A stretch of DNA of 14,269 bases from an uncultured Oscillospiraceae bacterium. GTDB lineage: Bacteria > Bacillota > Clostridia > Oscillospirales > Oscillospiraceae. Of this stretch, positions 1-14,269 are shown in pieces. Location: positions 1 through 14,269 of the forward strand of contig CAKUOS010000051.1 in assembly GCA_934670025.1 (NCBI GenBank), read 5' to 3'. A program made the position numbers and the translations under genes. The notes under the pieces are model-generated. The model was given only the letters and a program-made list of their open reading frames with translations, had not been told where the DNA came from and made no database searches. Position 1 is the stretch's first letter. Every line of letters begins with the position of its first letter.

Positions 1-332
1 GCCGTAACGACTACGAAGCATCCTGGATGCTGCCCACCGACCAGCAGGACGAAACCGGCAAGCAGGGCATGGGCCGCACCGACTCCATCTGGAACGAGAT
101 GAACGTCATCGGCGTCACCGAGGGCATCTACAACGATACCGTTGCCATCTCCAAGGAGAGCCAGTACTACACCCCGGAGATCGTCGCCGCGCTTCAGGAG
201 TGCTTCATCAACATCATCAACACCGATGAAGGCAAGGCCATCTTCGACGTCTACAGCCACACCGGCTATGCCAAGGCGACCGACGCCGATTACGACGGCG
301 CGCGCGCTGCGCTTCAGGCTGTTTCCGAGTAA
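1..332 (+). CDS. phnD: Phosphonate-type ABC transporter substrate-binding protein, 3' end only
   Basis: Open reading frame entering from the left edge (first whole codon at base 3), ending in TAA at 330-332; 109 residues are visible. It would be the extracytoplasmic solute-binding lipoprotein that captures phosphonate, phosphate esters or a related oxyanion and hands it to the membrane permeases. The visible part is the C-terminal lobe, with phrases typical of PhnD-like proteins (SWMLPTDQQD, WNEMNVIGVTEGIYNDTVAIS, and a final helix with GYAKATDADYDGARAAL). The signal peptide and most of the ligand site lie outside the window. The identification rests mainly on the unmistakable phnC-phnE-phnE genes that follow. 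It is separated from phnC by 158 bp holding a terminator-like hairpin, as is common where the binding protein is made in excess. The exact substrate cannot be told from this fragment. Confidence 0.8.
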   Translation, partial: RNDYEASWMLPTDQQDETGKQGMGRTDSIWNEMNVIGVTEGIYNDTVAISKESQYYTPEIVAALQECFINIINTDEGKAIFDVYSHTGYAKATDADYDGARAALQAVSE

Positions 333-361
333 GCAACCAAATACTGCAAGTGACAAGTGAA

Positions 362-394
362 AAGAGCGCCCCGCGAAAACGGGGCGCTTTTCTC
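362..394 (+). terminator. Terminator/attenuator hairpin between phnD and phnC
   Basis: Perfect 8-bp GC-rich stem GCGCCCCG (366-373) / CGGGGCGC (380-387) with a CGAAAA loop, followed by TTTTCTCT. The stem can extend through A-T and G-T pairs on the 5' A-rich side. It lies 33 bp after the phnD stop and inside the operon, so it probably attenuates transcription into phnCEE. Its 3' arm and T-tract are also the 5' arm of a second hairpin (385-398 with 414-427). Confidence 0.8.
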
Positions 395-427
395 TGCACC
401 GGACGCGCGCCGATGCAGAGAAAAGCG
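385..427 (+). repeat. 14-bp inverted repeat overlapping the phnD terminator
   Basis: CGCTTTTCTCTGCA (385-398) and TGCAGAGAAAAGCG (414-427) are perfect reverse complements with a 15-nt loop. The first arm reuses the 3' half of the terminator stem and its T-tract, so the two hairpins cannot form together in the RNA. A role in protecting or processing the upstream phnD message, or in readthrough RNA structure, is only inferred. Confidence 0.6.
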
Positions 428-490
428 TGTGAACAGGACGGGCCGCCCTGTGCGCGCTCCCAAATCTTTGAGAAAGAAAAGAGTCGCAGC

Positions 491-1288
491 ATGATTGAAT
501 TCAAAAATGTCTACAAGACGTATCCAAACGGCTTTACGGCGCTGAAAAACATCAACCTGCAAATCGAGCAGGGTGAGTTCGTCGCCATCATCGGCCTGTC
601 GGGCGCGGGCAAATCGACGATCCTGCGCTGCATCAACCGGATGCACGATATCTCCAAGGGCGAGCTGACGGTCGACGGCGTCGCGGTCGATTCGCTGCGC
701 GGCAAGCAGCTGCGCCGCTACCGCCGCAAGGTCGGCATGATCTTCCAGAGCTTCAACCTCGTCTCGCGCAGCACCGCCATCAAAAACGTCCTCACGGCCG
801 ACGTTCCGGATATGCCGTTTTTCCGCGTGCTCTTCGGCGTTTTCACGAAGGAGCAGAAGATGCGCGCGCTCGAGTCGCTCGATAAGGTCGGCATCCTCGA
901 CAAGGCATATACCCGCTGCGACCAGCTCTCCGGCGGCCAGCAGCAGCGCGTGGCGCTCGCGCGCACGCTCAACCAGAACCCGAAGATCATCCTCGCCGAC
1001 GAGCCTGTGGCCTCGCTCGACCCCATCACGGCCAAGCAGGTCATGCAGGATTTCGTCCGCATCAACAAGGAATACAAGATCTCCATCCTGCTGAACATCC
1101 ACCACGTGGACCTCGCGCTCAAATACTGCGACCGCGTCATCGGCATCCGCGCCGGCGAGATCGTCTTTGACGGCCCGGCCAGCACCATCACGCAGGAGCA
1201 GATCGACGAGGTCTATAACGGCGCCAAGGCGCCCACCATGGGCGAAGGCGAGGGCGAACTGCCCCGCGCGGCCGCGGCAGAGGGCTGA
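491..1288 (+). CDS. phnC: Phosphonate ABC transporter ATP-binding protein
   Basis: 265-residue ABC ATPase that energises import together with PhnD and the two PhnE permeases at the cytoplasmic membrane face. Visible motifs: Walker A GLSGAGKST (35-43), Q-loop FQSFNLV (85-91), signature LSGGQQQR (146-153), Walker B IILADEP (166-172), D-loop SLD, and switch histidine in NIHH (204). The 30 residues after the Q-loop (DMPFFRVLFGVFTKEQK) are typical of PhnC-type subunits. The C-terminus ends in an Ala/Gly/Glu-rich tail (GEGEGELPRAAAAEG). An in-frame GTG at 350 would add 47 residues translated through the terminator hairpin; the ATG at 491 gives the family N-terminus MIEFKNVYKTYP and was chosen, although the upstream purine stretch (GAAAAGAG) is only a modest ribosome site. 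The phnE1 start follows after 3 bp. Confidence 0.93.
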   Translation: MIEFKNVYKTYPNGFTALKNINLQIEQGEFVAIIGLSGAGKSTILRCINRMHDISKGELTVDGVAVDSLRGKQLRRYRRKVGMIFQSFNLVSRSTAIKNVLTADVPDMPFFRVLFGVFTKEQKMRALESLDKVGILDKAYTRCDQLSGGQQQRVALARTLNQNPKIILADEPVASLDPITAKQVMQDFVRINKEYKISILLNIHHVDLALKYCDRVIGIRAGEIVFDGPASTITQEQIDEVYNGAKAPTMGEGEGELPRAAAAEG

Positions 1289-1291
1289 GCC

Positions 1292-2143
1292 ATGGATCAG
1301 AACAACGAATCCGTCCTCAAGCTGACGCTGTACGACCGGATCTTCAAGCCCCAGACCATCACGCTGGCAAACGGCCATACCGTCATGCGCCGCCGCAGCC
1401 GCACGCCGCTGACGGTTCTGCTGCTGGCCGTGGCCATCTGGCTGTCGCTGCGGATGACGGGCTTCGATCTGCACGTCGTTATCACGAAATTCAGCAAGAT
1501 GGTCGACCTGCTGGAGAAGATCCTCCGGCCCGACTGGAGCTTTCTCCCGAAGGTCGTCTCGCCGCTGATCGATACCATCAAAATGTCCATCCTCGGCACG
1601 GTCGTCGGCTGTGTGCTGGCGCTGCCGGTGGCGATTTTGTCGTCGAGCAACATCAATAAGAGCATCCCCGTCGTCTGGATCATCCGCTTCATCCTCGGCC
1701 TGATCCGCACGCTGCCGACGCTCATCATCGCGCTCGTGTGCGCGCTGATCTTCTCGCTGGGCACGTTCTCCGGTACCATCGCCATCGCCGTGTTTACCTT
1801 CGGCATCGTGGCGAAGATGCTCTTCGAGTCCATCGAGACGATCGACATGGGCCCGTTCGAGGCCATGGAGGCGCTCGGCGCAAACAAATTCCAGGCATTC
1901 TGGTCGGCCTGCGTGCCGCAGATCCTGCCGGTCTATCTCAGCCACTGCCTGTACTGCTTTGAAATGAACGTCCGCGCGTCGGCCATTCTCGGCTACGTCG
2001 GCGCGGGCGGCCTCGGCATCACGATCAACGAGCGCATCGGCTGGCGCGATTACAACAGCCTCGGCATGGTGCTCCTGTCGCTGTTCGTCGTCGTCGTGGT
2101 GATCGATTTCTTCAGTGAGTACCTGCGCAAGAAGCTGAGCTGA
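1292..2143 (+). CDS. phnE1: Phosphonate ABC transporter permease (first copy)
   Basis: 283-residue inner-membrane permease. A charged cytoplasmic N-terminus (MRRRSR, 32-37) precedes a first membrane helix at about 39-57. After a linker come the BPD_transp_1-type helices (about 93-115, 128-152, 159-180) and a C-terminal helix at about 257-275. The EAA loop that docks on PhnC is visible at about 190-210 (EAMEALGANKF, followed by VPQILP), and GYVGAGGLG (234-242) is typical of PhnE. The gene starts 3 bp after phnC with no clear ribosome site of its own, so translational coupling is likely. It is related to but clearly different from the next gene, as expected for a PhnE1/PhnE2 heterodimer. Phosphonate import is a family inference; phosphite, phosphate-ester or other substrates are possible. 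Confidence 0.9.
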   Translation: MDQNNESVLKLTLYDRIFKPQTITLANGHTVMRRRSRTPLTVLLLAVAIWLSLRMTGFDLHVVITKFSKMVDLLEKILRPDWSFLPKVVSPLIDTIKMSILGTVVGCVLALPVAILSSSNINKSIPVVWIIRFILGLIRTLPTLIIALVCALIFSLGTFSGTIAIAVFTFGIVAKMLFESIETIDMGPFEAMEALGANKFQAFWSACVPQILPVYLSHCLYCFEMNVRASAILGYVGAGGLGITINERIGWRDYNSLGMVLLSLFVVVVVIDFFSEYLRKKLS

Positions 2144-2156
2144 AAGGAGCGTCACG

Positions 2157-3011
2157 ATGCAAAAGAAAGATAAGATCGCCATGCTGGAGCAGACGCTCGA
2201 CCGCAAGCTCACCACACTCGAAATGTACGCCAACCGCCCGCGCAAGTGGGTGCTGTATCTTGTAATCGTCCTGCTGGTGGCGATCCTCGTCGGCTGGTCG
2301 GCGGACGATATCCACTTCACCGGCCTCACGGCCACGGGCACCGAGGTCGCCAAGGGCGTTGTCCACGGCGTGTTCAGCCCGGATAAGGCGCTGCTGTTCG
2401 GCACGGGCGATTCCGATGTGCCGTATCTGCTGCTGCAAACGATGGCCATCGCCGTGCTCGGCACGATCTTCGGCGCGATCCTGGCCATTCCGTTCGCATT
2501 TCTGGCCTCGTTCAATATCATGCCGAAGGCCGTGGCGTATGTCGTGCGCATCCTGATCCTCATGATCCGCACGATCCCGTCCATCGTCTGGGCGCTCATG
2601 TGGATCCGCGTGACGGGCCCGGGCGCGGCCTGCGGCGTCATTACGCAGTCGGTCTGCTCGATCGGCATGATCTCCAAAATGTACATCACGGCCATCGAAG
2701 ATCTCGATACCCACATTCTCGAGAGTCTCGACGCCATGGGCTGCACGCCGTTTCAGAAGATCCGCTACGGCGTTCTGCCGCAGCTGACGGCCAGCTTCAT
2801 TTCCACCACGATCTACCGCTTTGACATCAACCTCAAGGACGCCACCACGCTCGGTATCGTCGGCGCGGGCGGCATCGGCGCGTCGCTGGTGCAGTGCCTC
2901 AACAGCCGCCGCTGGGGCATGGTCGGCTCGTTCGTGTGGGGATTGATGGTGCTGGTGCTGATCATCGAGCTCATCTCCACGCGCATCCGCAGAAAGCTGG
3001 CGCACGGCTAG
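2157..3011 (+). CDS. phnE2: Phosphonate ABC transporter permease (second copy)
   Basis: 284-residue partner permease, preceded by a good ribosome site (AAAGGAG, 7 nt before the ATG). The cytoplasmic N-terminus is amphipathic (QKKDKIAMLEQTLDRK), followed by a membrane helix at about 31-47 and a soluble loop with DDIHFTGL. The core permease helices lie at about 92-117, 125-150 and 160-180. The EAA loop is at about 189-209 (ESLDAMGCTPF ... VLPQ). GIVGAGGIGASL (233-244) is the counterpart of the glycine motif in PhnE1, and a last helix ends in TRIRRKLAHG. It is the last gene of the operon; repeat copy A, whose second hairpin plus T-run looks like a terminator, begins 1 bp after the stop. No C-P lyase genes are in view, so this window shows uptake only. 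Confidence 0.9.
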   Translation: MQKKDKIAMLEQTLDRKLTTLEMYANRPRKWVLYLVIVLLVAILVGWSADDIHFTGLTATGTEVAKGVVHGVFSPDKALLFGTGDSDVPYLLLQTMAIAVLGTIFGAILAIPFAFLASFNIMPKAVAYVVRILILMIRTIPSIVWALMWIRVTGPGAACGVITQSVCSIGMISKMYITAIEDLDTHILESLDAMGCTPFQKIRYGVLPQLTASFISTTIYRFDINLKDATTLGIVGAGGIGASLVQCLNSRRWGMVGSFVWGLMVLVLIIELISTRIRRKLAHG

Positions 3012-3012
3012 G

Positions 3013-3119
3013 CGTCAGAAACGACCTCGACGAAACGAGTCTTCGCAAGCGAAGCCTCTTATTCTCTGAGCTCGTTTCCTCCTTTCCAAAACGCAAACCA
3101 AGTTTGCGTTTTGGTTTTT
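3013..3119 (+). repeat. Structured intergenic repeat, copy A
   Basis: First of five full-length copies of a roughly 107-bp element (A here; B 3155-3260; C 3481-3587; D 7065-7172 inverted; E 8637-8743). Order of parts: CGTCAGAAACGA at the 5' end; hairpin 1, CTTCGC-aa-GCGAAG (3041-3054); a spacer with TTATTCTCTGAG; TCGTTTCCTCCTTTCC, whose TCGTTTC can pair back with the 5' GAAACGA; hairpin 2, CCAAAACGCAAAC/GTTTGCGTTTTGG; then a T-run. Hairpin 2 with its T-run directly follows phnE2 and probably terminates that operon. A 35-bp tail (about 3120-3154, containing TGTAGGGGCCGA) is shared with copy E. Confidence 0.85.
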
Positions 3120-3154
3120 GGGAGACCTTCCGGGAAGATGTAGGGGCCGATGCG

Positions 3155-3260
3155 CGTCAGAAACGGCTTTGACGGAACGAATCATCGCGGAGCGATGCTT
3201 CTTATCCTCTAAATCCGTTTCCTCCTTTCCAAAATGCAGGCCAGGCCTGCATTTTGGTTC
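3155..3260 (+). repeat. Structured intergenic repeat, copy B
   Basis: Same element in the same orientation, following copy A after its tail. It carries paired changes relative to A: the outer stem is GAAACGG with CCGTTTC (A has GAAACGA with TCGTTTC); hairpin 1 is ATCGC-gga-GCGAT; hairpin 2 is AAAATGCAGGCC/GGCCTGCATTTT. Each stem is preserved although the bases differ. It ends in TTTTGGTTC, a weaker T-run than copy A. Confidence 0.82.
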
Positions 3261-3262
3261 TT

Positions 3263-3387: not shown

Positions 3388-3480
3388 GAGTAGATACGTG
3401 ACGGCGGTTTCTGAGCAAAAAGCGTCCTTTTCTTCCATATCTTTTCCCACGCGAGGGAAAAGATATGGCCGTCGGAGACA
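3388..3480 (-). repeat. Intergenic module M2, left copy (inverted partner at 6929-7021)
   Basis: About 93 bp that is almost identical, in reverse complement, to 6929-7021. Its core is a perfect 14-bp inverted repeat, CCATATCTTTTCCC (3435-3448) / GGGAAAAGATATGG (3455-3468), around a 6-nt loop. The shared flanks are TGTCTCCGACGG on one side and AAAGGACGC-TTTTTGCTCAGAAACCGCC on the other. The stem differs from its partner by matched changes. It abuts repeat copy C. Confidence 0.8.
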
Positions 3481-3587
3481 CGTCAGAAACGACCTTGCCG
3501 AAACGAATCATCGCAAAGCGATGCTTCTTATTCTCTAAGCTCGTTTCTTCCTTTCCAAAACGCAAGCTAAACTTGCGTTTTGGTTTT
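3481..3587 (+). repeat. Structured intergenic repeat, copy C
   Basis: Full copy of the 107-bp element, starting CGTCAGAAACGACCTTGCCG. Hairpin 1 is CATCGC-aaa-GCGATG. Hairpin 2 is AAAACGCAAGCTAAACTTGCGTTTT, whose inner loop differs from the other copies while the stem is kept. It ends TGGTTTT just upstream of the nucleotidase gene and could block readthrough from the left. A 19-bp fragment of the element's 5' end (GAAACGACCTCGACGAAAC) recurs at 3598-3616. Confidence 0.84.
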
Positions 3588-6863: not shown

Positions 6864-6928
6864 GCAGAAAGCAGTAATCGGCGAAAGGAATCCCCTACGA
6901 TTCGTACAGTCTAAAGCCGCTTCCGACG

Positions 6929-7021
6929 TGTCTCCGACGGCCCAATCTTTTCCCGTGCGTGGGAAAAGATTGGGGAGAAAAGGACGCTTTTTTGCTCAGA
7001 AACCGCCATCACGTATCTTCT
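6929..7021 (+). repeat. Intergenic module M2, right copy
   Basis: Reverse-complement partner of 3388-3480. The core is a perfect 13-bp inverted repeat, CCAATCTTTTCCC (6942-6954) / GGGAAAAGATTGG (6961-6973), around GTGCGT. Flanks TGTCTCCGACGG and AAAGGACGCTTTTTTGCTCAGAAACC match the left copy apart from a few substitutions and single-base indels. The stems of the two copies differ by matched changes. It begins 65 bp after the hydrolase-like gene. Confidence 0.8.
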
Positions 7022-7056: not shown

Positions 7057-7064
7057 GCCTCTCT

Positions 7065-7172
7065 AAAAAACCAAACCGCAAACTTGGTTTGCGGTTTGGA
7101 AAGGAAGAAACGAACTTAGAGAATAAGAAGCATCGCTTGCGATGCTTCGTTTCGGCAAGGTCGTTTCTGACG
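7065..7172 (-). repeat. Structured intergenic repeat, copy D (inverted)
   Basis: Full copy of the 107-bp element read on the minus strand, from CGTCAGAAACGACC at 7172 down to the T-run at 7065. Hairpin 1 is GCATCGCAAGCGATGC. Hairpin 2 is CCAAACCGCAAAC/GTTTGCGGTTTGG, where copies A and C have AACGC/GCGTT, a compensated change. The pyrimidine tract reads TTTCTTCC here rather than TTTCCTCC. It lies 3' of the convergent flavodoxin operon, and its hairpin 2 plus T-run points the right way to terminate it. Confidence 0.84.
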
Positions 7173-7174
7173 CG

Positions 7175-7372: not shown

Positions 7373-7798
7373 TTATTCTCCCAGCGTCTTGCCGAGCGCG
7401 CGGCAGGCGTCCAGCGCCGCGTCGTCGGGCGCTTCGCAGCAGATAACGCTCTCACACGCGAGCACGAGACCGCCGTCGCGGCAGTCGGCCTCCCACGTGC
7501 GCATCCATTCGCCGTCGCCCCAGCCGTAGGAGCCGAACAGCGCCACCGGCTTGCCGCCGAGCTGCTGCTTGCACGCGGCGAACATCGGCGCATATTCCGT
7601 CTCCTCGATCGTCTCTTCGCCCATCGCCGGGCAGCCGAACGCCACCGCATCGAGCGCGCCGACCTTTGCCGCGTCGACCTCGTCGGGCGTCAGCATCATC
7701 GCGTCCGCGCCGGCATTCTTCATGCCCTCGAGCACCGCATTGGCCATCGCCTCCGTGTTGCCCGTGCCGCTCCAGTAGATCACAGCTGTCTTTTTCAT
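7373..7798 (-). CDS. Short-chain flavodoxin
   Basis: 141-residue FMN-binding electron carrier of the cytoplasm. The FMN phosphate loop SGTGNTEAM (10-18) follows strand 1 (KKTAVIYW). FGCPAMGEETIEETEYAPMF (54-73) is the 50s/60s loop. LFGSYGWGDGEWMRTWE (87-103) forms the second FMN-ring loop. Length and layout are those of clostridial flavodoxins that replace ferredoxin when iron is scarce. Start ATG at 7798, with a purine-rich ribosome site (AGAAAGGAAA) on the minus strand. It lies 53 bp downstream of the DUF3793 gene in the same direction, so it is probably co-transcribed from the promoter at 8592-8620. The dedicated redox partner is not evident; DUF3793 is the obvious candidate from context. 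Confidence 0.92.
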   Translation of the reverse strand: MKKTAVIYWSGTGNTEAMANAVLEGMKNAGADAMMLTPDEVDAAKVGALDAVAFGCPAMGEETIEETEYAPMFAACKQQLGGKPVALFGSYGWGDGEWMRTWEADCRDGGLVLACESVICCEAPDDAALDACRALGKTLGE

Positions 7799-7851
7799 AA
7801 ATTCTGTTTCCTTTCTGTGTATATATCAAATTTTTGCATGGTTTTCGTGTT

Positions 7852-8403
7852 TCAGGCCGATACGGCCAGCCGTTCGACGGACGAGCCCGCGCGCCAGAGT
7901 CTGCAATACAGCTCCGTACACGAGCGGTACTTTGCGAACTGACGCTTTGCGGCGGCTTCATCGCCGTAGACCTTCCATGTGCCGACGCACTTGAAATCCG
8001 CCGCGTGGTGCTCCATGAATCCGCGCACGTCCTCGGGGGGGTAGCTGAGGAACAGGCCGATCTCGTGCGGGAATTCCGCCGCCGCGCGCAGCCGGCGGAT
8101 CAATCCGCCGAGACACCGCGCACACGAAGTGCAGTCATAGCCGGCCTCGCGCAAAAGCGCCGCCGCATCCCGGTCGGCCAGATCGCTCCGGAGTCTTGCC
8201 GGGCGGTAGAGGTACAGCAGCGCCCGGCCGCCGCCGACGCGCATCGGCAGCAGACACAGACCCTTCGGCGCGAGCCTGCGGTTGAGCTCCCGGATCTGGC
8301 GCATCAGCGCCGCGCGGTCGCGGCAGTCGCAGGAAAACAGATTTCCCGTCTTGATCCCGGCCAATGTCGGCGCGCATTGCCGCACCAGCAGCTCTTCTGA
8401 CAT
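7852..8403 (-). CDS. DUF3793 family protein
   Basis: 183-residue soluble protein of unknown function. Family hallmarks: an N-terminal CAPTLAGIKTGNLFSC (10-25), FPHEIGLFLSYPPEDVRGFM (111-130), and CVGTWKVYGDEAAAKRQFAKYRSC (139-162). There is a cysteine cluster, CTSCARC (91-97), and others at 10, 25, 27, 50, 139 and 162, which could bind a metal or cluster. From general knowledge of clostridial genomes, DUF3793 genes often sit beside flavodoxin genes, as here. The start ATG at 8403 has an excellent ribosome site (AAAAGGAGG, 8-nt spacing). The mRNA leader is about 180 nt, folded, and carries operator-like sites. A role in flavodoxin maturation or iron/redox homeostasis is an inference from context only. 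Confidence 0.85.
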   Translation of the reverse strand: MSEELLVRQCAPTLAGIKTGNLFSCDCRDRAALMRQIRELNRRLAPKGLCLLPMRVGGGRALLYLYRPARLRSDLADRDAAALLREAGYDCTSCARCLGGLIRRLRAAAEFPHEIGLFLSYPPEDVRGFMEHHAADFKCVGTWKVYGDEAAAKRQFAKYRSCTELYCRLWRAGSSVERLAVSA

Positions 8404-8636: not shown

Positions 8637-8743
8637 CGTCGGAAACGACCTCGACGGAACGAATCATCGCGGAGCGATGCTTCTTATCCTCTGAGCTCGT
8701 TTCCTCCTTTCCAAACCGCAAACCAAGTTTGCGGTTTGGTTTT
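8637..8743 (+). repeat. Structured intergenic repeat, copy E
   Basis: Full copy starting CGTCGGAAACGACCTCGACG. Hairpin 1 is ATCGC-gga-GCGAT; hairpin 2 is CCAAACCGCAAAC/GTTTGCGGTTTGG followed by TTTT. A 30-bp tail (GACTTCCAAGAGAGGTGTAGGGGCCGA) parallels the tail of copy A. It lies directly behind the -35 box of the DUF3793 promoter (16 bp) and before the convergent end of the ECF operon. Confidence 0.84.
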
Positions 8744-8882: not shown

Positions 8883-11510
8883 TCACTCCGCCAGACCGTA
8901 TTTTGTCTTGATGCGGTCTAACTTTTCCAGCATCGGTTCCGCGCCGAGCCAGAGGAAGAAGAACGTGCCGATGGCGCGGACAAGATCGATGGGTACGCCG
9001 GTGAGGTAGTAGCTCTTGATGATGTTCCAGTTGATCGTGTGCGCCCACATGAGTGCCGACGCGGGGTTCATAATGCCGCCGTAGACGACGGTGGACGCGA
9101 TCACGCCGAAGATGCAAAGGCTGATACGGGAGCGTCGGAGAACGCCCTTGCGGTACAGGACACCCGCAAGCCAGCCGATGATGCCCATGGCAAACATCTG
9201 CCACGGCGTCCATTGCCCTTGCGAGAACAGCATATTGGACACCAGCATCGTCATGGCTCCGACGAGGAATCCGGTTTCGCCGCCGAAGGCCACGCCCGCC
9301 AGAATCGTCATGGCAACGACCGGCTTGAACTCCGGCAGCATGAAGAACGCAGCGCGTCCTGCCACATTCAGCGCAACGAGCACGGCAATCAAAACCAGCT
9401 CCCGTGCCTGCGGCTTTCTGCCCTCGAAAATGAGGAAAAACGGCAGCATACATTCCAGCAAAATGAGCAGCGAAATGAAGTAGTATTTCCGCCCGTCGAA
9501 GTAATACACGCCAACAAACAGCGTCAGCGGAATGAGCAGAAGAATCAAAAGCGTCGCAACCACAGTGCGCTTTTGCAGTTTCCGTTTTTCAACTGGCGTC
9601 TGGATGAGGTAGTCCGGGCGCTCGGCTTTGTGGCTCACGGACAGCGCAAAGACGAGCATGGATATGAGCATCACGCCGTAGAGCTTCAGCTGGTCGCCCG
9701 CGAGTGCCGTCAAGCCCTCGGCGGTCACGAGCTTTGTCAGGTCGGTGACGTTGAGTGTCTGGATGATTAAGACCAGCGATACGATTCCCGACACGGCGGC
9801 AAGGAGCTTGCGCCAGACAGGCAGTTTCTTCGCGGCTGCTTTTTCAGCTTTCGGTTCAGGCAGCACACGCGCATACTGCGGCAATTCCGGTTCCGGTTCG
9901 ACCGCGCCGCCGCACGCCGCGATCACGTCCTCGGGCGTGACAGCTTCTGGCAGCACGTCGCGGGCAATGCGGTTTGCGGCGGTCGTATAGAAGCTGTTGC
10001 CCGAGAAAAACGTCTTTGGCTCAGCTTCTGTGACGATATTTCCGTCGAAGAACAAGGCGCACCGGTCGGCGTATTTCGCGCAGAACTCGATGTCGTGGCT
10101 TACCATTAAAATCGCCACACCGGACGCTTGCAGCGCACGCAGGATTTGCCCGAACGTCTGCTTAAACTCCGCGTCCAAACCCTTCGTCGGTTCGTCCAGA
10201 AGGAGAATATTGGGGTTTAACAGAAGGATTTTTGCCAGCGCCGCACGCTGCTGTTCGCCGCCGGATAGGTCGTAGGGATGGCGGTCAAGCAGCTCTGCCA
10301 ATTTACAAAGCGATACAACCTGCGCCAGCCGTTCAGACTTCCGCTCCGCTTTTGGAAGAATCTCCAACAAATCCTCGCGGACAGTGGATTTGACGAACAG
10401 CGCCTGCGGATTTTGGGGCAGCATACCAACAGAACCGCTGATATGGAGTTCGCCGCGATAGGCTTTCCGCAAGCCGGCAAGCAGCCGCATGGACGTCGTT
10501 TTGCCCGTGCCGTTGCCGCCAAGCAGGGTCAGAAATTCGCCCTTGTGCAGCTCCAAGGACAAGCCTTTCACGACATCCGGAGAATCTTGCTCATACTTGA
10601 ACCACAATTCCTGCGCCGAGACAACGGTTTCGCCGTTTGGCGCAGGTTTTTCTTCATTCGGAACTGCCTGTAATTCATGCGTTTTTGCGTAATCCAGCAG
10701 CCAGTTCCGTCCGTCGCAGACGGAGATGGGGCAAGTCGCTTTGGAATCCGTTGCACTCCAGATGCGCATGGCGGCGGGCATCGCTAAATACATCGCGCTG
10801 CCGCGGTCCTTTAATTCCGCGCCTACGTCCGCGGGCGTGCCGGTGCAAAGGAGCCTGCCTTTGTCCATCACGGCCACGCGCGACGCGAAGCCGAACGCTT
10901 CTTCCAGCCGATGCTCCGTCAGAATGATCGTCGTGCCAAGTTCGCGGTTGATCTTGCCGAGGGTGGCAAGAAAATCCGACGCGGCAATGGGGTCGAGCTG
11001 GCTCGTCGGCTCGTCGAGGATCAGCACCTTCGGCTGCAAAACCATGACCGACGCGAGGTTCAGCAGCTGCTTTTGACCGCCCGAAAGCGCCGTGACCGGC
11101 TTATAGAACCACGTCTGGATACCGAAGAACGATGCCATTTCCGCAACGCGGCGGCGAATCGTCGGCGTGTCATAGCCGAGGGATTCCAAGCCGAAGGCAA
11201 GCTCGTGCCAGACCTTATCCGTGACGATCTGATTCTCCGGGCTTTGCTGCACAAAGCCGATCTTCTCGGCCTGTTCGCGCTGGGATAGCTCGTCGAGCTT
11301 CTTTCCGTCAAACAGAATTTCTCCCGAACGTCTGCCGTGCGGCGCGAGAACGGTTTTCAGCTGCCGCAGCAGCGTACTTTTGCCGCAGCCCGAAGGGCCG
11401 CAGAGAACCAGAAACTCGCCCGGTCGGACGGACAATGACAAATCGGAAATTGCGTTCTTCACTTGTTCCGGGTACGCAAAATTCAGGTTTTGGATTGTAA
11501 AGACGTCCAC
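8883..11510 (-). CDS. ECF-type transporter fusion: two ATPase domains plus membrane S-like domain
   Basis: 875 residues. ATPase domain 1: Walker A GPSGCGKST (38-46), signature LSGGQKQ (142-148), Walker B VLILDEPTSQLD (162-173), switch His200. ATPase domain 2: Walker A GGNGTGKTT (331-339), signature LSGGEQQR (415-422), Walker B ILLLDEPTKGLD (435-446), His472. After a Pro/Glu-rich linker (536-562) there are about nine or ten membrane helices (569 to the end). The last 175 residues look like an ECF S-component (ARELVLIAVLVALNVAGR, FGGETGFLVGA, WTPWQMFAMG). The preceding roughly four helices are extra. The GTG at 11510 was chosen: it has AAAGGAGG seven bases upstream and starts the ABC fold. An ATG at 11687 would add 59 residues read from inside ecfT. 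The gene overlaps ecfT by 28 bp. Energised uptake of a vitamin-like ligand is expected. Confidence 0.85.
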   Translation of the reverse strand: MDVFTIQNLNFAYPEQVKNAISDLSLSVRPGEFLVLCGPSGCGKSTLLRQLKTVLAPHGRRSGEILFDGKKLDELSQREQAEKIGFVQQSPENQIVTDKVWHELAFGLESLGYDTPTIRRRVAEMASFFGIQTWFYKPVTALSGGQKQLLNLASVMVLQPKVLILDEPTSQLDPIAASDFLATLGKINRELGTTIILTEHRLEEAFGFASRVAVMDKGRLLCTGTPADVGAELKDRGSAMYLAMPAAMRIWSATDSKATCPISVCDGRNWLLDYAKTHELQAVPNEEKPAPNGETVVSAQELWFKYEQDSPDVVKGLSLELHKGEFLTLLGGNGTGKTTSMRLLAGLRKAYRGELHISGSVGMLPQNPQALFVKSTVREDLLEILPKAERKSERLAQVVSLCKLAELLDRHPYDLSGGEQQRAALAKILLLNPNILLLDEPTKGLDAEFKQTFGQILRALQASGVAILMVSHDIEFCAKYADRCALFFDGNIVTEAEPKTFFSGNSFYTTAANRIARDVLPEAVTPEDVIAACGGAVEPEPELPQYARVLPEPKAEKAAAKKLPVWRKLLAAVSGIVSLVLIIQTLNVTDLTKLVTAEGLTALAGDQLKLYGVMLISMLVFALSVSHKAERPDYLIQTPVEKRKLQKRTVVATLLILLLIPLTLFVGVYYFDGRKYYFISLLILLECMLPFFLIFEGRKPQARELVLIAVLVALNVAGRAAFFMLPEFKPVVAMTILAGVAFGGETGFLVGAMTMLVSNMLFSQGQWTPWQMFAMGIIGWLAGVLYRKGVLRRSRISLCIFGVIASTVVYGGIMNPASALMWAHTINWNIIKSYYLTGVPIDLVRAIGTFFFLWLGAEPMLEKLDRIKTKYGLAE

Positions 11511-12379
11511 TGCCTGTCCTCCTTTCGGTCGAGAATCACCGGTGTCAGCACCAGCGCAAGGTAAACGAGCATAAAGCTCACGGTCAGGGGCGTCCATGCG
11601 GCGGTTTTGACGGTCGGATAGTACCGGAAGTACGTTCCTCCCGCTATCCAACCGGAAATCAGATACGCGCCGCAGAAGATGAGCCACGCGAGCGCGGCCT
11701 TGTCGCGGTCATCAAAACGATAGATGGAAAATGCTGTGCGTCCGGGCAGACCGTAGCCTCGCGAGCGCATGGAATCTGCCGTTTCGATTGCATTTTCCAA
11801 GCTCCATGTGACCATGATGGAGAAGATTTTGACGGCGTTGCCGACGCGCCGAATCACGCTGCCGGTTTTCGTGTCGCGCCCGATACACGCCTGCGCTTCG
11901 GAGACAACTTCCATCTGTGATTTGAACTTCGGAATGAAGCGGAGCGCCATAGAGAGGACGAGGGACAGGGCGGGGATCATGCGCCCGAACAGGTACACGA
12001 ATTTATCTGAGGTCATCACGTCGTTGTAGCTCGAAAACCAGAGTACGACGCTTGCCAGCATGACCGCTGCGGCCACGCCGTACAGGATGGATTCCAGCGT
12101 CAAGGGGTTGCCGCTCGGCAGATACGTCAGCATCGTTTGCCCCTCGTGGTTAAACGCGGGGTTGACCAGCGCGGCGATCACCGTCATGGGGAGAAGACCC
12201 ATGACGGCGAAGCGCACCGCTTTTCTGCCCTTGAGATAGATGTCATACGCCAGCGCGCCGGTCAGCGAGATCGCCAGATAGACCGGGTGCATTAAGCACA
12301 TGGATAGTAAGAGAACCAGCGCGTAGTACAGGAAATTGATAATGGGATGATACCCCGAAAAAGCGTCTTTGTTTTTCAT
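11483..12379 (-). CDS. ecfT: ECF transporter transmembrane component EcfT (CbiQ-like)
   Basis: 298-residue scaffold subunit that couples the ECF ATPases to the S-component. Membrane helices lie at about 15-48, 55-74, 97-116, 126-146, 230-247 and 265-283. The cytoplasmic coupling helices contain ALRFIPKFKSQMEVVSEAQ (145-163) and the diagnostic ENAIETADSMRSRGYG (195-210), where the Arg-containing motif docks into the ATPase groove. The ATG at 12379 overlaps the stop of the DUF4430 gene by one base (TGATG), and its own 3' end overlaps the ATPase fusion, so the whole operon is likely translationally coupled. The C-terminus after the last helix is short (RKEDRQWTSLQSKT). Confidence 0.88.
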   Translation of the reverse strand: MKNKDAFSGYHPIINFLYYALVLLLSMCLMHPVYLAISLTGALAYDIYLKGRKAVRFAVMGLLPMTVIAALVNPAFNHEGQTMLTYLPSGNPLTLESILYGVAAAVMLASVVLWFSSYNDVMTSDKFVYLFGRMIPALSLVLSMALRFIPKFKSQMEVVSEAQACIGRDTKTGSVIRRVGNAVKIFSIMVTWSLENAIETADSMRSRGYGLPGRTAFSIYRFDDRDKAALAWLIFCGAYLISGWIAGGTYFRYYPTVKTAAWTPLTVSFMLVYLALVLTPVILDRKEDRQWTSLQSKT

Positions 12380-13233
12380 CAGCCGCCCGTTGCGTAGCCG
12401 CCGCCTACATCATCTCCGAGGTCGCAGGTATAGACCCACTCGATCACGTCGCCGTCCTGGAGCAGATAGCGGCTGCATCCGTAATTCGGGAACCAGTCAT
12501 TGACACGATACATCCAACCGGATTCATTGCCGACGTCGAACTCATAGAGGTTGTGGATGCCCTCGATGTACGCGGAGTTGTAGACCGGCGTGTTGGAAAA
12601 CTCCATGTGGATGCCCTGCTGCTTGCACGTTCTTTGCAGGACGTTGAAGACGCTCTCGCCCGCGTAGAATGTGACGGTCATCGGCTCCAAAATCCAGCCG
12701 TTTTCCGGAACCAGCTCCCACTTTTCCGGGTCGCAGAGTTCCTGATTGTCGAGAATCGTGGCGCAGGAGATGGAGAGCGTGCAGGTGTATGATGCGTCGC
12801 CGATCTCCACGTCCTCCGGTTCGACGGGCGCGGGTTTGCCCTCCGGTACGGGGTCGGTCAGATACTTGTCCTTGCCCGTGCCGGTGTCGATCATCATACC
12901 GTTGATCTCTTCATACTCGCCGGTCGCACCGGCGCCCATTTCCGCCGGGGTAGGGAACTCCTGCGGTTCGGCGGGTTCTTCCGGTGCTTCATCCGCGGGC
13001 GCGGGCGTTTCTTCGGTGGGAACCGGGTCTTCGGCGGGGTCTGGTTCCTGCACAGGTTCGGGTTCCTGCGCGGGCTGCGCCGGGGCTTCTGCCGGGGCAG
13101 AGACGGTGGGCTGTTCAGCCGGGTCTTTCTGCTTCGGCATATTCCGGTCGCCGAGGAAAAACGCGGCGACAAGCACCAGTACGATCAGAACCGGCGCAAT
13201 GATTTTCCATTTGTTTTTCTGCCAAAATGTCAT
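12379..13233 (-). CDS. Membrane-anchored DUF4430 (transcobalamin C-terminal-like) surface protein
   Basis: 284 residues. A positively charged start (MTFWQKNKWK) and one hydrophobic helix (11-27) form an uncleaved signal anchor. A Pro/Glu/Ala-rich stalk (about 36-98) follows, then a globular domain (about 140-275) of the DUF4430 type, a family grouped with the C-terminal beta domain of transcobalamins. Visible hallmarks: GWILEPMTVTFYAGESVFNV (179-198), YNSAYIEGIHNLYEFD (218-233), SGWMYRVND (238-246), and LLQDGDVIEWVYTCDLG (257-273). Six cysteines (151, 157, 167, 203, 253, 270) could form disulfides outside the cell. It lies 1 bp after the SLH gene and overlaps ecfT, so it is part of the importer operon. 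It probably presents a ligand, perhaps a corrinoid, to the ECF complex; the ligand is inferred from fold relationship only. Confidence 0.8.
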   Translation of the reverse strand: MTFWQKNKWKIIAPVLIVLVLVAAFFLGDRNMPKQKDPAEQPTVSAPAEAPAQPAQEPEPVQEPDPAEDPVPTEETPAPADEAPEEPAEPQEFPTPAEMGAGATGEYEEINGMMIDTGTGKDKYLTDPVPEGKPAPVEPEDVEIGDASYTCTLSISCATILDNQELCDPEKWELVPENGWILEPMTVTFYAGESVFNVLQRTCKQQGIHMEFSNTPVYNSAYIEGIHNLYEFDVGNESGWMYRVNDWFPNYGCSRYLLQDGDVIEWVYTCDLGDDVGGGYATGG

Positions 13234-13234
13234 A

Positions 13235-14269
13235 TCAGATCAACTCCGCAGCGGTCAGCATATTGTAAAGCATCTGCGCGATCTCGCAGCGCAGGATGGC
13301 TTTGGTGGGTTCAATGTTGAGGTCGCTCTGGTCGAGGATATTGACGGAGTAGCAGAACGCCATCGGTTCCTTTGCCCAGGATGCCACGCTGCGGTAGTCT
13401 CCGAACTGCGCCAGCATATCCTTTGTCGCAGCCGCGCCCATCGCAGTGTCCAGCCCGCAGAGCTTTGCCGCTCTTGCCACCATCGCGGCGGCCTCCTGCC
13501 GGGTGATGGTGCCGTCCGGGTTAAACTTGCCGCTGCCGACACCGTTGACAATTCCAGATGCATTTGCCGCGCCGATGTAGCCGGCGTACCACTTGCTGCT
13601 GGGAACGTCGGTAAAGGCTTTCGTGTCTTTCGCGGGCAGACCGAGCGCTCTTGTGACGATGGCGGCAAATTCCGCGCGGGTCATGGTCTTATTCGGCGCG
13701 AAAACGTCTTTGCTCATGCCGTTGATGATGCCGCGGGACGCGAGGGCTTCAATGGCAGTTTTGTTGGCATGGTTTTTCACGTCCGAGAACGTTGTGCCGG
13801 GCGCGGACACGCCGGGGACATTGACCGACGGATCTGCTTTGCTCTTATTGATGTTGGTGTTGGGCTTGGAGGTGTTTTTGGTCACGTCGCCCATGCGGTA
13901 GAGACTGTTTTTGCCGTTTTCCGCGCGGTCGATGGCGACGAGCGCGTAGAAACCCTGTTCGGCAGACATCTGGTTATTGCCGTCCGAACCGTCAAGGACG
14001 TGGGTAAAGCCGCCGTTCGATTGACGGAAGGAGAGAAGATTTTCTACAAGACCGTGACCGTTCTTTACAAAGCGGGAATCGTCAAGGCTGATGCCCAGCT
14101 CGCAGAGTGCGACGATGACCTGTGCTACAGATTCCACGTTTGTCGTGCCCCACGACGCAAAGCCGCCCTTGCTGTCCTGATTCCTGGAGAGCCAGGAGAG
14201 AGCGCTGTCCGTCGCGGTCTTGACGGCTTTCTGATCCTGATATTTTGCAAGCGCCTGCAATGCCATTGC
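13235..14269 (-). CDS. Alpha/alpha-toroid (prenyltransferase-repeat) protein with SLH domains, 5' end missing
   Basis: The frame runs off the right edge; 344 C-terminal residues are visible. The first 115 are toroid-type repeats: ALQALAKYQDQKAVKTATDSALSWLSRNQDSKGGFASWG, then VESVAQVIVALCELGIS, then NGGFTHVLDG and SAEQGFYALVAIDRA. These resemble squalene-cyclase/prenyltransferase repeats and the N-terminal barrel of transcobalamin and intrinsic factor. A Ser/Thr/Asn/Pro linker (about 128-158) follows. Three SLH domains come last: FSDVKNHANKTAIEALASRG with TRAE (196-199), FTDVPSSKWYAGYI with TRQE (255-258), and a degenerate third with LRCE (325-328). SLH domains bind pyruvylated cell-wall polymers, so the protein is surface-held. 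The ATG at 14266 is internal to a longer gene, not the start. It is the upstream gene of the DUF4430-ecfT-ATPase operon, with a 1-bp gap. Confidence 0.82.
   Translation of the reverse strand, partial: AMALQALAKYQDQKAVKTATDSALSWLSRNQDSKGGFASWGTTNVESVAQVIVALCELGISLDDSRFVKNGHGLVENLLSFRQSNGGFTHVLDGSDGNNQMSAEQGFYALVAIDRAENGKNSLYRMGDVTKNTSKPNTNINKSKADPSVNVPGVSAPGTTFSDVKNHANKTAIEALASRGIINGMSKDVFAPNKTMTRAEFAAIVTRALGLPAKDTKAFTDVPSSKWYAGYIGAANASGIVNGVGSGKFNPDGTITRQEAAAMVARAAKLCGLDTAMGAAATKDMLAQFGDYRSVASWAKEPMAFCYSVNILDQSDLNIEPTKAILRCEIAQMLYNMLTAAELI

Follow-up and report, generated by a model that had tools for sequence, protein, structure and literature searches.

The window, a 14,269-nucleotide stretch of DNA from an uncultured Oscillospiraceae bacterium, carries at its far end a four-gene operon that probably encodes a corrinoid capture module of Gram-positive bacteria coupled to a CbrT-type energy-coupling factor (ECF) importer. 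The predicted products are a wall-anchored alpha/alpha-toroid protein, a membrane-tethered DUF4430 protein, the transmembrane subunit EcfT, and a fusion of two ECF ATPases (EcfA) with an S component. Corrinoid import by the ECF part together with a two-sided clamp made of toroid and DUF4430 is given a probability of roughly 0.6; that the ECF part imports a corrinoid, taken by itself, is very probable. The substrates would be vitamin B12, other cobamides or cobinamide, scavenged from the surroundings. The toroid, held in the wall through its SLH repeats, and the DUF4430 domain, which a flexible tether links to the membrane, would jointly bind the corrinoid at the cell surface, much like the alpha and beta domains of animal transcobalamin and intrinsic factor. 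The bound corrinoid would then be handed to the CbrT-like S domain, which, fused to two ATPases and acting with EcfT, would drive ATP-dependent import.

The four genes are encoded on the minus strand and run inward from the window edge, with the following features:

14269-13235 (-), alpha/alpha-toroid and SLH protein; open reading frame (ORF) open at the window edge, 5' end cut
about 14269-13855 (-), toroid part, N-terminal portion lost at the window edge; Pfam Prenyltrans, E-value (E) 8.6e-5, below the Pfam cut-off in this incomplete copy
about 13798-13268 (-), SLH repeats of the wall-anchored half; Pfam SLH, E 5.5e-34
13233-12379 (-), membrane-tethered DUF4430 protein; PF14478, E 3e-19
about 13203-13147 (-), hydrophobic segment of the DUF4430 protein, from hydropathy
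about 13131-12919 (-), Pro/Glu-rich linker of the DUF4430 protein, from composition
about 12660-12427 (-), DUF4430 domain, from PF14478 and alignment A1
12379-11483 (-), EcfT, CbiQ-family transmembrane energy-coupling subunit; PF02361, E 9.7e-8
11510-8883 (-), EcfA-EcfA-S fusion with a GTG start; ABC_tran in two stretches, E 6.3e-57
about 11498-10752 and about 10628-10002 (-), ECF ATPases in the fusion; ABC_tran, and TIGR04520 above cut-off
about 9413-8895 (-), C-terminal CbrT-like S component in the fusion; sole PDB match 6fnp_A

The genes are separated, in order, by a 1-bp gap, a 1-bp overlap and a 28-bp overlap. An earlier note on this DNA had described this coupling and had named the toroid/SLH protein, the tethered DUF4430 protein, EcfT and an ATPase-ATPase-membrane fusion; the ORFs and the sequence confirm the former, and Pfam the latter. 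The arrangement is not due to chance, because the gene order repeats in relatives and 28 bp is the most frequent EcfT/EcfA overlap among their loci. The DNA upstream of the operon, promoter region included, lies beyond the window edge, and a scan of the window found no Rfam families or tRNAs.

The S domain points to a corrinoid. Among solved structures it matched only chain 6fnp_A at E up to 1 (E 8.6e-9 over about 173 residues), and the S-domain profile A4 matched the same chain at E 4e-15, the runner-up standing at 0.15. The Pfam assignments of this domain, PF07155 (ECF-ribofla_trS, E 1.9e-10) and PF12822 (E 1.9e-7), include a riboflavin label, which is probably a superfamily match, given that 6fnp_A is the sole structural match. 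This 182-residue chain is labelled just 'Membrane protein', and is taken as CbrT because 6FNP is identified as the ECF-CbrT structure of Lactobacillus delbrueckii in excerpts of PMC5997447, where ECF-CbrT is reported to transport cobalamin and cobinamide. EcfT and two ECF ATPases are both present in the window, as in an ECF-CbrT-type transporter with its homologous S component, two EcfA and one EcfT, and the ATPase family TIGR04520 (ECF_ATPase_1) scores 329.6 against a cut-off of 315. Unlike ECF-CbrT, the window's system has its S component fused to the ATPases, an EcfT of its own, and two extracellular proteins besides. This fusion points to a pump whose module is not open to other S components.

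The gene set recurs in relatives. A search of genome contigs with a DUF4430 alignment gave 102 loci, the best 80 of which were kept; they span Oscillospiraceae, Flavonifractor, Butyricicoccus, Tissierellales, Lutispora, Paenibacillus, Cohnella and others. Where the contig reached far enough, a toroid was encoded upstream of DUF4430 or fused to it at 72 of 73 loci, and EcfT, EcfA and the S component were encoded downstream at 67 of 72, 61 of 65 and 55 of 58 loci, respectively. Because linker motifs were used to find these loci, the set is biased, and the S domain was therefore used as a second seed. It matched 73 of 196 genomes (a sample of the class of a Flavonifractor genome) at E <= 1e-20, and 40 of its loci were fetched with upstream DNA: DUF4430 is present on the same strand at 33, the toroid at 31, and both at 31. 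The ten loci with weaker S matches (below 280 bits) follow this pattern in nine cases. The pairing of toroid and DUF4430 genes beside ECF genes, proposed for relatives, thus holds in both sets.

In the DUF4430-seeded set, the S component is a separate ORF in 11 loci, two of which (L015 and L039) look like broken ORFs; it is separate in five of seven Paenibacillus loci (L066, L072, L073, L078 and L079) and fused in the other two (L026 and L055). In four loci with no ECF genes nearby (L013, L037, L038 and L048), no other corrinoid importer was recognised in gene lists read by eye, a family scan not having been made. The closest relative with known surroundings is genome G001, which has several copies of the toroid and two operons whose DNA is 80-82% identical to that of the window; closer proteins than those of G001 were found on metagenome contigs. 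The toroid/SLH protein of the window is 90% identical to a 540-residue protein of locus L001.

Cobalamin riboswitches (RF00174) are the second line of evidence. Among 50 DUF4430-seeded loci scanned, 29 have one upstream on the operon strand (L003, L006-L009, L015, L016, L026, L031, L033, L034, L036, L040, L042, L043, L047, L052, L055, L060, L061, L063, L066, L068-L070, L072, L073, L077 and L079). In the S-seeded set, with at most 48 riboswitch candidates scored per genome, RF00174 was found on the same strand within 16 kb upstream at 23 of 40 loci, where 0.25 would be expected from the riboswitch density of the genomes; at least one match is present somewhere in 37 of these 40 genomes. A profile of divergent riboswitches added one in L014 that had been missed at the Rfam threshold. 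In L099, a G001 copy that lacks ECF genes, a weak riboswitch (34.3 bits) precedes the giant, toroid and DUF4430 genes, and L044 has one downstream on the opposite strand. No thiamine or queuosine riboswitches were found in the scans of relatives' loci, and the sole other metabolite riboswitch in the DUF4430-seeded scans responds to S-adenosylmethionine (SAM) and lies in L099, some 2 kb past the DUF4430 gene on its downstream side. More than one cobalamin riboswitch, either two or three, stands before the operon in L034 (7225-7425 and 7769-7954), L042, L043, L006, L007 and L008; those of L034 and L042 are closely spaced.

Genes of corrinoid metabolism accompany two of the operons. Locus L100 of G001 has the order TIM barrel, cobT, cobU, cobS, cobC (a cobC-type phosphatase), toroid, EcfT, EcfAAS, and its cobT is the only cobT match of that genome. 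In L003, a TIM barrel-cobT-cobU group and cobC are located downstream of the operon. Xylose-isomerase-like TIM-barrel genes also recur inside the ECF operons as one cluster of 11 loci (PF01261 shown for L008), between EcfT and EcfAAS in L005-L009, L011, L021, L022 and L029, before EcfT in L023, and at 2705-3676 in L077. A different TIM-barrel subfamily adjoins cobT in L100 (271-1071, PF01261 shown) and L003 (7748-8506). These TIM-barrel genes possibly encode corrinoid enzymes of a new kind. A predicted metal-binding DUF2284 protein is encoded at 12782-13345 of L011, in a cluster found near the operon in four loci (DUF2284 shown for L011).

In sequence, the toroid is most like the barrels of squalene cyclases and the domains of alpha-2-macroglobulin. 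At E up to 10, 25 of 26 toroid members have SQHop_cyclase_C in their family lists, and the full-length relative L001 passes its cut-off (26.4 against 26.1 bits). On these matches, together with the riboflavin label of the S domain, the toroid could be taken for a terpene cyclase-like enzyme in an operon that imports an unrelated vitamin such as riboflavin. Squalene-hopene cyclases have the catalytic motif DxDD. The corresponding acid site is D/E-x-D-[IVM]-T in the 22 displayed alignment rows that cover it, the copy in the window ending before the site, and this speaks against membership of the squalene-hopene cyclase family. The enzyme reading is very improbable, as the toroid protein is also wall-anchored, no other solved S component was matched at E up to 1, and the metabolite riboswitches upstream of relatives' operons are for cobalamin.

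In the DUF4430 protein, a single hydrophobic segment (Kyte-Doolittle 2.68 from residue 11) is followed by a linker of 71 residues rich in Pro, Glu and Ala, and by a DUF4430-type beta domain recognised by Pfam. A conserved TDPVPEGKP stretch before the domain was considered as a pump-docking signal and rejected as a general feature: the strict pattern occurs in only 4 of 32 DUF4430 hits near an S component and in none of 24 elsewhere in the S-seeded set, the DUF4430-seeded loci being biased because they were found partly with that motif. In one DUF4430 relative (P0011), some 40 residues of the linker region are duplicated in tandem. Three unannotated phage-collection sequences from human faeces filed as 'Bacteriophage sp.' (MT839226, MT837027 and MT835727) contain partial DUF4430 matches, covering 32-49% of the query at 38-46% identity.

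The two halves are displayed in several ways. In the window, the toroid stands on SLH repeats, and DUF4430 on a hydrophobic anchor and linker. A single-chain toroid-DUF4430 protein adjoins EcfT in L076, and others lie about 2.3-2.5 kb before the S component in L161 and L169. Such single-chain forms make up 18 of the 120 listed homologues of the L076 protein, itself included; 15 of the 18 have a lipobox-like N-terminus, and SLH is listed in none. The order is reversed in P0208, with DUF4430 before the toroid. Giant multi-domain proteins precede many operons, and those of L068 and L026 combine toroid regions, SLH and, respectively, two and three DUF4430 stretches; in the giant protein of L001, DUF4430 and SLH were recognised by Pfam and the toroid by BLAST.

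In four loci, a dockerin above the Pfam cut-off ends the toroid protein in place of the SLH anchor (toroid stretches L059 6205-9533, L063 5962-9461, L069 5896-9254 and L080 6765-9297). Two of these loci are binned as Ruminococcus, one as Clostridia and one, probably misbinned, as Alistipes. The dockerin-toroid gene is followed by a membrane-tethered gene of a cluster seen in eight loci, and then by DUF4430. The only member of that cluster scanned, from L080, matches cohesin PF00963 at E 1.3e-4, with 22.6 bits against a cut-off of 24.1; L058 was also scanned, and neither contains a dockerin nor belongs to the cluster. The dockerin/cohesin-like pair is perhaps a cellulosome-style docking used for corrinoid capture. 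Since each of these layouts places the toroid near membrane-bound DUF4430, they fit one functional unit. The earlier note's picture of two separate surface proteins describes the window correctly, but the split form is just one of several layouts, alongside fused, SLH, dockerin, giant and toroid-only (L100) forms.

A number of results weigh against the corrinoid clamp. DUF4430 is missing from the fetched DNA of 7 of the 40 S-seeded loci, one of them a 4.9-kb contig end, and the cob-linked L100 has a toroid and no DUF4430 gene; the pump thus does not strictly require the pair. No upstream riboswitch was detected in 21 of the 50 DUF4430-seeded loci, some with upstream DNA cut off, or in 17 of the 40 S-seeded loci. 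Neither Rfam nor the divergent-riboswitch profile found one upstream of L001 and L002, the closest relatives of the window with known surroundings; Rfam found none in the close relatives L097 and L098, and the three matches of G001 (90 of 166 candidates scored) are on contigs that carry neither L001 nor L002. A cobalamin riboswitch, which the earlier note proposed to look for, is thus present before the operon in many relatives, but was not found in the nearest ones. Among ten genomes checked, cobT is present in eight and placed beside the operon in G001 alone, the other seven cases not being placeable. The toroid profile matches squalene cyclases in the PDB at E 1e-10, and not transcobalamin. 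The transcobalamin family PF01122 (Cobalamin_bind) did not appear for the 26 toroid members in a list of at most 25 families, drawn up at E up to 10 with HMMER filters on, and is also absent from the complete Pfam family lists of single toroid proteins, including that of the window. Of five profiles compared with the PDB (A2, A3, A6, A7 and A10), the DUF4430 profile A7 alone reached transcobalamin-1, at E 1.5; the broader DUF4430 alignment A10, from which L168 was left out as its cut held no DUF4430 domain, did not match it.

The A7 alignment places an R-x-W-x-x-Y stretch of transcobalamin-1 on the conserved VYNSAY stretch, so that Tyr222 in the window's DUF4430 protein aligns with Tyr362 (E 1.5). 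PMC4350170 names Arg357, Trp359 and Tyr362, which have the spacing of R-x-W-x-x-Y, as residues in contact with the corrinoid; given the alignment score, the correspondence is suggestive only. The same paper places DUF4430 in the C-terminus of TCN proteins. The relation of the animal beta domain to DUF4430, stated in the earlier note, is accordingly on record there, but appears faintly in the profiles made here.

The absence of a detectable riboswitch in the nearest relatives, together with the several toroid copies of G001, means that the window's copy could serve another corrinoid or be under other control. The same absence favours heme or another tetrapyrrole as its substrate, which is nonetheless improbable. 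A heme ECF cluster of Lactobacillus sakei is said to include a DUF4430-type protein. ECF heme importers are described in Gram-positives, in Staphylococcus lugdunensis (PMC7299338), but the S domain of the window matches CbrT alone, ECF-CbrT showed no competition between hemin and cobalamin (PMC5997447), and relatives have cobalamin riboswitches and cob genes. The ligand first proposed as a corrinoid or related tetrapyrrole is thereby narrowed to a corrinoid, and the copy in the window presumably serves the same ligand as those of its relatives.

It is also conceivable, though rather unlikely, that the ECF part imports a corrinoid while toroid and DUF4430 form no clamp, and instead act singly, first bind another partner such as a glycan or a protein that binds B12, or have a part in organising the cell surface. 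L136, L139 and L149 have an S component and a riboswitch with neither half in the fetched DNA, the toroid sequence is nearer to squalene cyclase barrels and alpha-2-macroglobulin domains than to transcobalamin, and giant proteins stand before many operons. L100, with its toroid and no DUF4430, lowers the confidence in the clamp and raises that in this reading. On the other hand, natural single-chain toroid-DUF4430 proteins near ECF genes argue for one unit near the membrane and lend the clamp indirect support; that toroid and DUF4430 so often accompany the S component likewise argues for one unit.

The joint clamp remains the preferred reading, and a wider proposal is made tentatively, at slightly less than even odds: that Clostridia and Paenibacillus possess their own modular equivalent of the B12 carriers of animals, in which toroid and DUF4430 halves enclose a corrinoid. 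The halves would be presented separately on wall and membrane, as a fused lipoprotein, or linked through dockerin and cohesin, and would usually feed a CbrT-type ECF pump. Such a module may be related in evolution to the source of transcobalamin. Animal transcobalamin, intrinsic factor and haptocorrin likewise consist of an alpha/alpha toroid and a C-terminal DUF4430-type domain (for the latter, PMC4350170), and their toroid-first order is that of most bacterial fused forms seen. In contrast, the halves in the window are split over two surface-anchored proteins, PF01122 is not listed, and the sequence link is very weak. CbrUVT, named as a B12 uptake transporter among predicted cobalamin ECF transporters in excerpts of PMC8123684, is likewise an ECF transporter assigned to corrinoids; DUF4430, transcobalamin and intrinsic factor occur 0 times in the main text of that paper. 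The pump is thus of a known kind (CbrT/CbrUVT), whereas the surface module is, as far as seen, undescribed: the literature searched, outside which most subscription journals lie, yielded no account of toroid and DUF4430 as a capture module alongside an ECF transporter. In the Isd/NEAT heme relay of Gram-positives and in BtuG of Bacteroides, surface proteins capture a tetrapyrrole and pass it to an importer; the resemblance to the window's system is in how they work, as folds and transporter classes are unrelated. The proposed system bears on the means by which Gram-positive bacteria of the gut capture corrinoids, a scarce resource, on the outer side of the membrane. It could shape competition for B12 in the gut, where the host uses a two-domain carrier of similar make-up, and offers a role open to direct test for DUF4430, a family without an assigned function.

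The rest of the window has other contents. A phosphonate-type ATP-binding cassette (ABC) transporter is encoded at 3-3011 (+), with PhnC and two PhnE-like permeases above NCBIfam cut-offs; before it stands the final part of a further ORF, which matches no family and is perhaps the binding protein. Downstream of the operon and on its strand, 7373-8403 (-) holds a DUF3793 gene and a flavodoxin-like gene (the latter recognised by eye), neither among the 45 largest gene clusters of relatives' neighbourhoods. A dispersed intergenic repeat of about 110 nucleotides is present in both orientations, its copies 67-94% alike, at 3012-3125, 3155-3261, 3417-3587, 6913-6992, 7060-7173 and 8637-8743.

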